Part shown: positions 31,400-34,880 of the stretch, piece after piece
Position numbering within the stretch: the stretch's first letter is position 1
Layout of the letters: each line of letters opens with the position of its first letter
From: Pseudomonadota bacterium
GTDB lineage: Bacteria; Pseudomonadota; Alphaproteobacteria; SHVP01
Direction: 5' to 3'
DNA length: 64,000 nucleotides
Assembly (NCBI GenBank): GCA_027622715.1
Contig: JAQBYN010000012.1
Coordinates: forward strand, 1-64,000
Made by a program: the position numbers and the translations under genes
Notes under the pieces: model-generated
What the model was told of the DNA's origin: nothing
Databases searched by the model: none
The model's input: the letters and a program-made list of their open reading frames with translations, nothing else

Positions 31400-31473
31400 T
31401 GGAGCGGGTGAAGGGAATCGAACCCTCGTCGTAAGCTTGGGAAGCTTCTGCTCTGCCATTGAGCTACACCCGC
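31400..31473 (-). tRNA. tRNA-Gly (anticodon CCC)
   Basis: A full cloverleaf reads on the minus strand. The acceptor GCGGGTG pairs with CACCCGC, the D-arm contains AGCTCAATGGCAGAGC, the T-arm loop is GTTCGATTC, and an encoded CCA end lies at 31400-31402. The anticodon loop TTCCCAA puts CCC at 31439-31441, like E. coli glyU. Confidence 0.95.
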
Positions 31474-31694: not shown

Positions 31695-32648
31695 ATGTCG
31701 ATCGTTGAGCGGGACGCTTTGGCCCCGATGTCGGGTAAGTTCCGAAATCCGAACATCACCGCCGATGGAGCCAATCGTGCGTCCATCGGTTTGCGGCAAT
31801 TGGACTCGTTGTGGATTAACACGGGAACTCTTTGCAACCTGACCTGCACGCATTGCTACATTGAATCCAGTCCGACAAATGACCGTCTTGAATACATCAC
31901 CCGTAGTGAGGTCCGCGCCTATCTAGACGAGATTCGAGATCTCGGTCTGCCGACCCGAGAAATCGGTCTTACGGGTGGCGAACCCTTCATGAATCCGGAT
32001 GTAATCGGCATCCTCGATGACATTTTGTCCCGTGGACTCGAAGCGTTGATCTTAACCAATGCGATGACGCCGATGAAACATCATCGGGCCGAACTCCTCC
32101 GGCTGCGCGAATCGTACGGCGACGCGCTGACTTTGCGCATATCGCTGGATCACTACACCCAACAGCGGCATGAAGAAGAGCGCGGCGCGCAATCTTGGTC
32201 GCGGACCGTTGAAGGCTTGCAGTGGCTCGCGCAGAACAGATTTCGGATGGCCGTTGCCGGACGAACGATGTGGCAAGAGCCTGAATCCGCCTTACGCGAG
32301 GGCTACGCCCGCCTATTTTCCGCATTGCGGATACCGATCGACGCGACCGATCCGGGCCAACTCGTAATTTTTCCGGAAATAGATGAATTCGCTGAGGTAC
32401 CGGAGATTACTACCGCGTGCTGGGGCATCCTGAACGTGAACCCCGACGCGATGATGTGCGCGACCTCTCGTATGGTTGTGAAACGCAAGGGCGCGGCTCG
32501 GCCGATGGTCGTATCCTGCACGCTCCTGCCCTACGACGCGCAATTCGAAGTTGGTCATACACTGGCAGACGCGAAAACCAGCGTGCGGCTAAACCATCCG
32601 CATTGCGCCCGATTCTGCGTCCTGGGCGGTGGATCCTGCAGCGCCTGA
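31695..32648 (+). CDS. Radical SAM protein with SPASM/twitch-like C-terminus
   Basis: A 317-aa radical SAM protein of unknown product. The cluster motif is CNLTCTHCYIE (Cys 47, 51, 54), and the GGEP motif is GLTGGEPFMNPD (94-97). The C-terminal part has cysteines at 242, 255, 275, 304, 308 and 315 (ACWGILNVNPDAMMC, then HCARFCVLGGGSC). This spacing resembles SPASM/twitch auxiliary-cluster domains of peptide- and sugar-modifying enzymes. The ATG at 31695 has GGAG seven bases upstream. The next gene is a phosphoesterase-like protein on the same strand, and I believe the two are paired in other alphaproteobacteria. I cannot name the substrate. Confidence 0.85.
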   Translation: MSIVERDALAPMSGKFRNPNITADGANRASIGLRQLDSLWINTGTLCNLTCTHCYIESSPTNDRLEYITRSEVRAYLDEIRDLGLPTREIGLTGGEPFMNPDVIGILDDILSRGLEALILTNAMTPMKHHRAELLRLRESYGDALTLRISLDHYTQQRHEEERGAQSWSRTVEGLQWLAQNRFRMAVAGRTMWQEPESALREGYARLFSALRIPIDATDPGQLVIFPEIDEFAEVPEITTACWGILNVNPDAMMCATSRMVVKRKGAARPMVVSCTLLPYDAQFEVGHTLADAKTSVRLNHPHCARFCVLGGGSCSA

Positions 32649-32683
32649 GGCCGCCGCCACTCGGTTGGCATGATCTTGGCGCG

Positions 32684-33541
32684 CTGACCCCGCCGCTTCT
32701 TTTTTTCGGCGGCCCTTATAGCAATCTTCATGCGACCACCGCACTTGCCAAACACGCCAGCACACTAGGGATCGCCGGCAGTTCTTGCATCTGCACCGGC
32801 GACGTCGTGGCCTACGGCGCGCACCCCCAGGAAACGGTTGGCGTGCTTAGAGAGCTTGGCTGCCACGTCGTCGGTGGAAACTGCGAAGAAGCGTTTTCGT
32901 CAAGGTCGGCCGATTGTGGGTGCGGGTTTGCTGAAGGCTCTCGCTGCGACATTTTGTCGGCGCGCTGGATGGATTATACCCGCCGAAATCTCGACGACGA
33001 TGCGTGCGCTTGGATGAGCACACTTCCTTCAGACATTCGTTTTTCGGTCGGTGGTGTCAATTTCTTCGCAACCCACGGCGCGCCATCGCAGGTGAATCGT
33101 TTCGTTTTCGATTCCACCGACGCATCTGTGAAATTGCGGGAGTGCGCCAACGCTGAGGCGGACGTCATCATCGCCGGACACTGCGGTCTGCCGTTCACTA
33201 ATGAAATTGGAACAAGCATTTGGCATAACCCCGGTGTCATCGGGCTGCCAGCCAACGATGGCACCCCGCGCACGTGGTTCAGCACACTCTCCGAGGATGA
33301 GGATGGGCTTCGTCTCGAGACAACGCCGCTGGATTATGACCATACGGCGGCCCAAACGCAGATGCGGCAGGCCGGACTGCCCGAAGAATATGCAGCAACC
33401 CTATCGACCGGCCTATGGGATAACTGCGAGATTCTGCCAGCCGCAGAAACCAGGGCGCAAGGGACTGCGTTGACGGCGATCAGTATTGCCCTGCCCGCGC
33501 GGCGCCGGCCGTCCAAGATATCCCCATTCGCCGGCGCTTGA
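32684..33541 (+). CDS. Variant metallophosphoesterase-like protein, cysteine-rich
   Basis: Calcineurin-like phosphoesterase relative, about 285 aa. Numbering from the CTG at 32684, the YfcE-type motifs are altered: motif I (normally DxHxN) reads GGPYSNLHA at 9-17, GDVVAYGAHP is kept at 39-48, GNHD is GNCE at 65-68, THGAP is kept at 130-134, and GHTH is GHCG at 165-168. NPGVIGLPANDGTPRTW is typical of the fold. About eleven cysteines are present, including DCGCGFAEGSRC at 77-88. No ATG, GTG or TTG lies in frame between the radical SAM gene's stop and the first motif. CTG 32684 is therefore a tentative start; the frame is open back to 32417 inside the upstream gene. Partner of the radical SAM gene. 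Confidence 0.75.
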   Translation: MTPPLLFFGGPYSNLHATTALAKHASTLGIAGSSCICTGDVVAYGAHPQETVGVLRELGCHVVGGNCEEAFSSRSADCGCGFAEGSRCDILSARWMDYTRRNLDDDACAWMSTLPSDIRFSVGGVNFFATHGAPSQVNRFVFDSTDASVKLRECANAEADVIIAGHCGLPFTNEIGTSIWHNPGVIGLPANDGTPRTWFSTLSEDEDGLRLETTPLDYDHTAAQTQMRQAGLPEEYAATLSTGLWDNCEILPAAETRAQGTALTAISIALPARRRPSKISPFAGA

Positions 33542-33573
33542 CTGAACGAGGGTCCGGGCGTAATTACATTTCT

Positions 33574-33631
33574 GTGGTGATTTGAGCCGACCGGCTTGCG
33601 GCCACGTTAAACAAACTGCTTAAAAGGTCGG
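33574..33631 (+). promoter_or_regulatory. SAM-II riboswitch (metA RNA motif)
   Basis: The sequence GTGGTGATTTGAGCCG, then CGGCTTGCGGCCACGTTAAA and GCTTAAAAGG match the alphaproteobacterial SAM-II motif from memory. GTGG (33574-33577) pairs with CCAC (33602-33605) to close the hairpin. CCGACC in its loop region (33587-33592) is perfectly complementary to GGTCGG (33626-33631), which gives the expected H-type pseudoknot. It sits directly before metZ, a classical target. A weak promoter candidate (TTGACT at 33538, 17 nt, then TAATTA) lies just upstream. Confidence 0.88.
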
Positions 33632-33639
33632 AGCAACAA

Positions 33640-33662
33640 CCCGGCTCCTGGCCGGGTTTTTT
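33640..33662 (+). terminator. Attenuator terminator of the metZ leader
   Basis: CCCGGC (33640-33645) pairs with GCCGGG (33651-33656) around a 5-nt loop, followed by TTTTTT. It lies between the SAM-II motif and the metZ start, 15 nt before the ATG. It is likely the expression platform of the riboswitch. Confidence 0.85.
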
Positions 33663-33677
33663 GTTGGGAGACCGAAC

Positions 33678-34880
33678 ATGACCAGCACTGGGACCAAGAA
33701 AGACAGCCGCGGCTGGCGCCGACAAACCCTTGCGGTGCGGGGCGGCCAATCGCGATCGAATTTTGGCGAGACGAGCGAAGCACTTTTTCTGACCTCGGGC
33801 TACGTGTACGACGCGGCGGAACAGGCGGAAGCGCGGTTCAAGGGCGAGGACGACGGATTCATCTATTCTCGTTTCTCGAATCCGACAGTCGGGATGTTCG
33901 AAGAGCGTGTAGCTGCAATCGAAGGCATGGAACGGGCGATGGCGACGGCGACGGGCATGGCCGCGGTTAACGCCTCGTTGGTGTCCCAACTGAAGGCTGG
34001 CGACCATGTCGTCTCGGCCCGGGCGTTATTTGGGTCTTGCCGCTATATCGTCGACGATATTCTGCCGCGCTTCGGCGTTGACGTGACGCTCGTCGATGGT
34101 GGCGACTTGGCCCAGTGGGGCGCGGCGGTCCGGGGCAACACGGTCTGCGGATTCTTGGAAACACCGTCAAACCCAATGCTCGACATCGTCGATATCCGCG
34201 CGGTGGCGGATATTCTCCATGGTGTCGATGCAAGACTGGTGGTCGACAACGCGTTTGCCACGCCCGCCCTGCAGCGACCGGGTGAGTTCGGCGCTGATAT
34301 CGTGGTTTATTCGGCAACCAAACATATTGATGGCCAGGGCCGCTGCCTCGGCGGCGTCGTGCTCGGTTCAGAAGATTACGTCGAGAACATTCTCAAGCCC
34401 TACCTTCGGCATACCGGGCCCGCACTAAGCCCCTTCAATGCCTGGGTCATGCTCAAGGGGCTAGAAACACTAGAGCTTCGATTGGAAAGACACTGCGCGT
34501 CGGCAGCAACAATTGCCGCGCTTCTCGAAGAAGACGATCGGGTTTCGCGCGTGATCTACCCTTGGCTGGACAGCCATCCCGGCAGTGCATTGGCAAAAAA
34601 GCAGATGAAGGCCGGTGGCGGGATAATAACTTTCGATATCGGGATCGACAAAGACCAAGCATTTCGGTTCTTGAACGGCCTGAATATCGTGGACATCTCA
34701 AACAACTTGGGTGATTCGAAAAGTCTTATCACCCATCCAGCGACCACGACCCACCAACGCGTTCCGGAAGCGGAACGCCACGAGCTTGGGATACTCCCCA
34801 CAACTGTTAGGTTGTCGGTTGGGCTTGAGGACATCGATGATTTGCTGGACGATATTCGGCAGGCTCTAAGCGCGCTATAA
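33678..34880 (+). CDS. metZ: O-succinylhomoserine sulfhydrylase MetZ
   Basis: PLP enzyme (Cys/Met metabolism family) that makes homocysteine directly from O-succinylhomoserine and sulfide. The opening TLAVRGGQSRSNFGETSEALFLTSGYVYD is of the MetZ subgroup, and the PLP lysine lies in YSATKHIDGQGRCLGG. It has 400 aa. ATG 33678 follows GGGAG. Expression should fall when SAM is abundant, through the SAM-II leader. Confidence 0.95.
   Translation: MTSTGTKKDSRGWRRQTLAVRGGQSRSNFGETSEALFLTSGYVYDAAEQAEARFKGEDDGFIYSRFSNPTVGMFEERVAAIEGMERAMATATGMAAVNASLVSQLKAGDHVVSARALFGSCRYIVDDILPRFGVDVTLVDGGDLAQWGAAVRGNTVCGFLETPSNPMLDIVDIRAVADILHGVDARLVVDNAFATPALQRPGEFGADIVVYSATKHIDGQGRCLGGVVLGSEDYVENILKPYLRHTGPALSPFNAWVMLKGLETLELRLERHCASAATIAALLEEDDRVSRVIYPWLDSHPGSALAKKQMKAGGGIITFDIGIDKDQAFRFLNGLNIVDISNNLGDSKSLITHPATTTHQRVPEAERHELGILPTTVRLSVGLEDIDDLLDDIRQALSAL

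Follow-up and report, generated by a model that had tools for sequence, protein, structure and literature searches.

The window analysed here, a stretch of 64,000 nucleotides on contig C72 (genome size 3.15 Mb, reported completeness 100%), contains two adjacent plus-strand genes, one encoding a radical SAM protein (P0001) and the other a protein with a phosphoesterase fold (P0002), both of which proved to be real reading frames as given in the preliminary description. Their boundaries and those of the flanking features are collected in Table 1. With TTG as its start, the phosphoesterase gene shares 46 bp with the end of the radical SAM gene, and homology to related proteins begins at about 32669; a CTG start was dropped as unnecessary because the TTG codon is already in frame. 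Residues of P0002 are counted from position 32645 throughout. The pair looks like a transcription unit of its own, since a tRNA-Gly gene on the minus strand lies upstream and a SAM-II riboswitch precedes the metZ-like gene downstream.

Table 1. Coordinates of the gene pair and of its flanking features in the window.
Feature	Position	Strand	Remark
Radical SAM gene (P0001)	31695-32648	+	ATG start to stop, 317 aa
Phosphoesterase-fold gene (P0002)	32603-33541	+	TTG at 32603 is the nearest canonical in-frame start
tRNA-Gly (CCC)	31400-31473	-	upstream boundary, outside the pair
SAM-II (SAM_alpha) riboswitch	33564-33643	+	71.3 bits vs gathering score 36; downstream boundary, outside the pair
metZ-like gene	33678-34880		preceded by the SAM-II riboswitch

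P0001 carries a Radical_SAM domain (Pfam, E 1e-16) whose CX3CX2C core (C47/C51/C54) is present in 36/36 homologs. Its C-terminal part contains six further cysteines at positions 242, 255, 275, 304, 308 and 315, as had been noticed before; the last five are invariant in the 36 homologs and C242 is kept in 31/36. The C-terminus reads LNHPHCARFCVLGGGSCSA, and the LNHPHCA-FCVLGGASCS motif at the protein end is a signature of the family. No SPASM domain was matched in P0001 by Pfam at E up to 1, its six C-terminal cysteines do not make up the seven-cysteine motif of SPASM proteins, and the earlier term "SPASM-like" therefore describes the cysteine content of the protein only. Among NCBIfam families, none was reached at its cut-off: the best match was the Rv1681 family of radical SAM proteins (NF049973; 99.5 bits, covering the core only, with a cut-off of 380), and the arsenic-adenosylating family ArsS also remained below its own. 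In a survey of 385 genomes of the class, the radical SAM gene was found in 114, i.e., about 30% of sampled Alphaproteobacteria (gene calls in the surveyed genomes are six-frame open reading frames). One homolog, G287:C1:532265-533176 in a 1.2 Mb genome, has an in-frame TAA, and the copy in the close relative G550 is intact.

The cysteine-rich C-terminus raises the question of whether P0001 could be a peptide-modifying maturase of the SPASM type, for which the phosphoesterase would bind the substrate. The five to six conserved C-terminal cysteines fit such an enzyme, and the solved radical SAM folds nearest to a model of a naturally fused form of the two proteins include SkfB and SuiB, together with BlsE; however, besides the missing Pfam SPASM match, no precursor peptide or RiPP gene recurred among the radical SAM neighbours, and the gene co-occurs strongly with genes of sugar or nucleoside type (see below), which makes a peptide maturase very improbable. 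Of the three kinds of target proposed earlier, a peptide was thus disfavoured, and a nucleoside or a sugar is compatible with the gene's company.

P0002 scores above the gathering score of Metallophos_2 in Pfam (36 vs 27 bits) and below the curated cut-off of YfcE (TIGR00040; 21.6 vs 56.25 bits), and its earlier description as a cysteine-rich relative of YfcE-type enzymes is correct for the fold and for the conserved cysteines, the match to YfcE itself being weak. The best PDB matches of its AlphaFold model (pLDDT 92.7, pTM 0.90) are metallophosphoesterases, namely SapH (an asymmetric Ap4A hydrolase, 3qfm), 3rqz, and 1nnw; the target TM-score is 0.80-0.82 for SapH and 0.66 or less for YfcE, and a C-terminal extension is common to P0002 and 3rqz. 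The altered metal site and additional cysteines mentioned in the preliminary description were found again in the homologs. In the window protein, DxH has become GxY, GNHD has become GNCE, and GHxH has become GHCG. Among 76 homologs, the DxH motif, which from general knowledge of the fold we assign to metal site 1, has G in 76/76 and Y in 73/76; GNHD reads GNCE or GNVE, with Cys (60) or Val (16) in place of the catalytic His of GNH, and GHxH appears as GH(C/S)G with its last His changed to Gly in 76/76. In contrast, the ligands that we take to form site 2 (D53, N79, H144, and H179), which P0002 has in common with YfcE, Metallophos_2 proteins, and SapH, are kept in 76/76. Of the cysteines noted in P0002 (C50, C80, C91, C93, and C101), C93 and C101 occur in 76/76 homologs and C50 and C91 in 75/76, so that, compared with those relatives, the family has lost metal site 1 as well as its catalytic His and has gained conserved C50, C91, C93, and C101. 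The window protein retains the residues that are invariant across the 76 homologs. P0002 is thus a metallophosphoesterase by fold and not by a dinuclear active site, and its conserved CGC...C loop could serve for binding a soft element.

The phosphoesterase is much rarer than its neighbour, occurring in 23/385 genomes of the class (24 matches, one of them a canonical relative). It is also dispensable: the same-genus genome G224 is without it, and the closest relative of the window protein (63% identity; L074:8384-9235) contains both an in-frame TGA and an in-frame TAA, reflecting either a decaying pseudogene or an assembly error.

A connection between the two genes is evident from other genomes. 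Both were present in 20 of the 23 phosphoesterase genomes of the class survey (Fisher p 6e-9; this and the other association p-values given here ignore phylogeny and are inflated by common ancestry), of which eight have them adjacent and one fused, several others carrying them on separate contigs. Of the named loci, 80 were selected by similarity to P0002 as the closest of at least 552; in 16 of these the radical SAM gene directly precedes the phosphoesterase gene, and in 19 the two form a single fused reading frame in the reversed order, with the phosphoesterase first. Fused forms include those of Bradyrhizobium BTAi1, Enhydrobacter, Azospirillum griseum, Acidiphilium, and Reyranella, and a model of the Bradyrhizobium BTAi1 protein as a single unit is confident (pLDDT 94, pTM 0.88). 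About five changes are required for the fused forms on a FastTree tree, and a single origin of them is possible. The pairing is therefore not a matter of chance, and the functional link suspected in the preliminary description is well founded; rare adjacency, which was named there as evidence against it, was not what the neighbour count showed.

Part of the adjacency does reflect common synteny, as the radical SAM gene, the phosphoesterase gene, metZ, apaG, folE, and trkH recur in one chromosome region, and one may ask whether the two genes are chance neighbours held together by that region alone. Reversed-order fusion is evidence for linkage that is independent of synteny, and such fusions occur at several positions of the radical SAM tree; together with an exchange with ArsS in phosphoesterase genomes (see below), they are not explicable by one conserved block. 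Chance as the sole cause is ruled out by these fusions and by the co-occurrence, leaving this account with hardly any probability. Other apparent partnerships were rejected as well. metZ adjoins 25/83 radical SAM loci, which was read as conserved synteny because in the window metZ has its own SAM-II riboswitch and no gene of the metZ cluster appears in the listed neighbourhoods of fused forms; zwf/pgi and dcd were found in only 3 and 5 loci, respectively.

The same data do not agree with a self-contained two-gene system, as which the pair had initially been presented. Genomes with the radical SAM gene outnumber those with the phosphoesterase gene about fivefold (114 vs 23 of 385), and the 94 radical SAM genomes without a phosphoesterase rule out a system of fixed partners. 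In addition, the phosphoesterase is found paired with ArsS as well, and TIGR04283 and TIGR04282 accompany the radical SAM gene more closely than the phosphoesterase does. These two families are labelled by NCBI as arsenosugar biosynthesis glycosyltransferases, labels that we treat as annotation names and not as tests of function. TIGR04283 was present in 110/114 radical SAM genomes vs 39/271 others (p 9e-57), and TIGR04282/TIGR04283 genes lie within 6 kb of the radical SAM gene in 15/83 loci, where a MerA-like/VTT reductase (10 loci), MTAP (3), and an SSF transporter (2) were also found. A TIGR04283-TIGR04282 pair is also encoded in the window genome, on contig C59 (202 and 161 bits, both above the curated cut-offs), so that the pathway genes of this genome are split over contigs C72 and C59. 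As the pair is repeatedly adjacent or fused elsewhere and travels with arsenosugar-type genes, it is most likely part of a little-known organoarsenic-like sugar pathway and not free-standing.

A further indication of the pathway comes from phosphoesterase loci that have no adjacent or fused radical SAM gene of the alphaproteobacterial type. In 35 further named genomes of this kind, ArsS was found in 16 and the window-type enzyme in 18, both in none, and neither in one (p 4e-9); among the 18, the copy of L132 lies in the same locus without being adjacent, and that of G574, at the end of a contig, is fragmentary. ArsS was found neither in five fused-form genomes nor in the window genome. Similarly, in 80 genomes tested from the class survey, ArsS occurred only in G212 and G334, which are two of the three phosphoesterase genomes lacking the window-type radical SAM gene, and in both it adjoins TIGR04283 beside the phosphoesterase. 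This mutual exclusion suggests that ArsS and the window-type enzyme fill the same slot in phosphoesterase genomes, which in itself does not prove the same chemistry; the window-type enzyme probably takes over the role of ArsS.

The CX3CX2C core of ArsS (TIGR04167) aligns with P0001 over 149 columns (hhalign probability 98.8), and both enzymes occupy the same slot in phosphoesterase genomes and have the same neighbours (TIGR04282, TIGR04283, the VTT/MerA-like reductase, and the phosphoesterase). However, P0001 reaches 67.1 bits vs the curated ArsS cut-off of 300, DUF3641 (184 bits in the ArsS of L112) is absent from it, the hhalign alignment ends at the core and leaves its C-terminal half unaligned, and window-type enzymes form a separate clade in the tree. 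P0001 is not a member of the ArsS family by cut-off and DUF3641, and it probably works like ArsS. To our knowledge, no phosphoesterase or TIGR04282/TIGR04283 partner is known for ArsL of the arsinothricin pathway (ArsQML). That enzyme offers another likeness, as it forms a C-As bond by radical SAM chemistry (PMC12159101, PMC8552651). It differs in transferring a 3-amino-3-carboxypropyl and not an adenosyl group. In the formation of oxo-arsenosugars, ArsS is described as attaching the adenosyl group to arsenic (Cheng 2021, as cited in PMC12159101).

We consider it an evenly balanced proposition that the window enzyme does the job of ArsS, i.e., an arsenic-type adenosylation, with the phosphoesterase as an optional partner of the pathway. 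In such a scheme, the radical SAM enzyme would cleave SAM and pass the 5'-deoxyadenosyl group to a soft acceptor, for which a methylated arsenic(III) species is the most likely candidate, so that an adenosine modified at its 5' position is formed. In some relatives, a phosphorylase of the MTAP/PNP type would next release adenine from this product; the sugar would be converted into a glycoside by the TIGR04283 and TIGR04282 proteins. With either type of radical SAM enzyme, the phosphoesterase would assist the pathway, most likely by binding or cleaving an adenosyl- or phosphodiester-linked metabolite that the pathway makes or imports, on which its cysteine loop and its one remaining metal site may act.

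The element concerned may also be other than arsenic. The architecture of the pathway could be the same with another soft acceptor (sulfur, selenium, or other) being adenosylated and the glycosyltransferase-like pair and the phosphoesterase processing the product, in which case the arsenosugar label of the TIGR families would be too narrow. The arsenite methyltransferase ArsM, for example, was not found in the window genome (best match 62 bits vs a cut-off of 263), and a recognisable ArsM is absent from 34/40 radical SAM genomes checked; at E 1e-45 it occurred in 6/40 of these genomes vs 5/40 without the radical SAM gene, showing no overall association, which rules it out as a universal companion. 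The window enzyme also falls outside the ArsS family and lacks DUF3641, and no arsenic-resistance family was recurrent, among the families listed, in the 127 remaining neighbour ORFs. On the other hand, ArsM-type genes stand directly in radical SAM clusters at four loci at three separate positions of the tree: in L191, the radical SAM gene, TIGR04282, TIGR04283, MTAP, and an ArsM relative (202 bits) lie side by side, L247 combines the radical SAM gene with ArsM, VTT, and a MerA-like reductase with TIGR04282/04283 nearby, and ArsM is also part of the cluster in L013/L014. The missing ArsM implies either that methylated arsenic comes from outside, in which case its absence would be explained by uptake, or that the acceptor is something else. 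Given these clusters and the strict exchange with ArsS in phosphoesterase genomes, we regard a different element as less likely than arsenic.

The role of the phosphoesterase may be viewed differently as well. It could be an ordinary catalytic phosphodiesterase (e.g., a hydrolase of Ap4A or of glycerophosphodiesters) that acts in salvage or import and has only a loose link to the radical SAM reaction, as might be suggested by SapH among its best structural matches and by its genomic setting outside Alphaproteobacteria. A sodium:solute symporter (SSF) gene adjoins it in most gammaproteobacterial and in all Bacteroidota loci, and the order in Bacteroidota is TIGR04282, SusC, SusD, SSF, and phosphoesterase, followed by ArsS in some loci (SusC and SusD were named by eye). 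The loss of metal site 1, the replacement of the catalytic His by Cys or Val and of the last GHxH His by Gly, and the fusion to the radical SAM enzyme, which argues for a tight link, make this account unlikely. SusC-like, SusD-like, and SSF genes precede the phosphoesterase in 12/12 Bacteroidota loci (L083, L098, L104, L112, L122, L131, L134, L138, L139, L144, L149, and L151), an observation that hints at substrate uptake.

Among the organoarsenicals of marine food webs, arsenosugars hold a major place, yet few of the steps in their biosynthesis have been worked out. None of the papers covered by the literature search dealt with a pairing of a radical SAM protein and a metallophosphoesterase. 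If the ArsS-like reading is right, the arsenosugar pathway would include a radical SAM protein that about 30% of the alphaproteobacterial genomes surveyed encode, together with a partner of phosphoesterase fold distributed from Alphaproteobacteria to Bacteroidota. This would widen the set of arsenosugar producers or consumers and provide a concrete missing component of the pathway for testing, for which natural fusions are available in strains that can be cultured, e.g., Bradyrhizobium sp. BTAi1. More tentatively, ArsS may not be the only class of adenosylating radical SAM enzymes: another class may run an organoarsenic sugar pathway in roughly 30% of the Alphaproteobacteria sampled, streamlined genomes of 1.2-1.3 Mb among them, and the phosphoesterase fold, having lost its first metal site and carrying a conserved cysteine loop, may have been recruited as an organoarsenic-handling partner common to both classes.

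Several additional observations were made in the surveyed genomes. A cluster in a Desulfuromusa MAG (L132:7725-16563), comprising DUF547, SSF, the phosphoesterase, two ORFs, a divergent window-type radical SAM gene, and a MerA-like/VTT reductase, is a deep-branching version of the system. A conserved ORF with a GRGA-NxxGRFE-like N-terminus, presumably another radical SAM protein (probably PA0069-like), was noticed near the TIGR04283-TIGR04282 pair in L288, L293, L296, L301, L306, and L307, the window genome included. Finally, three ArsM-like genes contain one in-frame TGA each within the part that was matched (G282:C75:16268-16837, G377:C88:32865-33449, and G391:C28:31215-31865, the last in L311), and these genes possibly encode a selenocysteine-containing ArsM.
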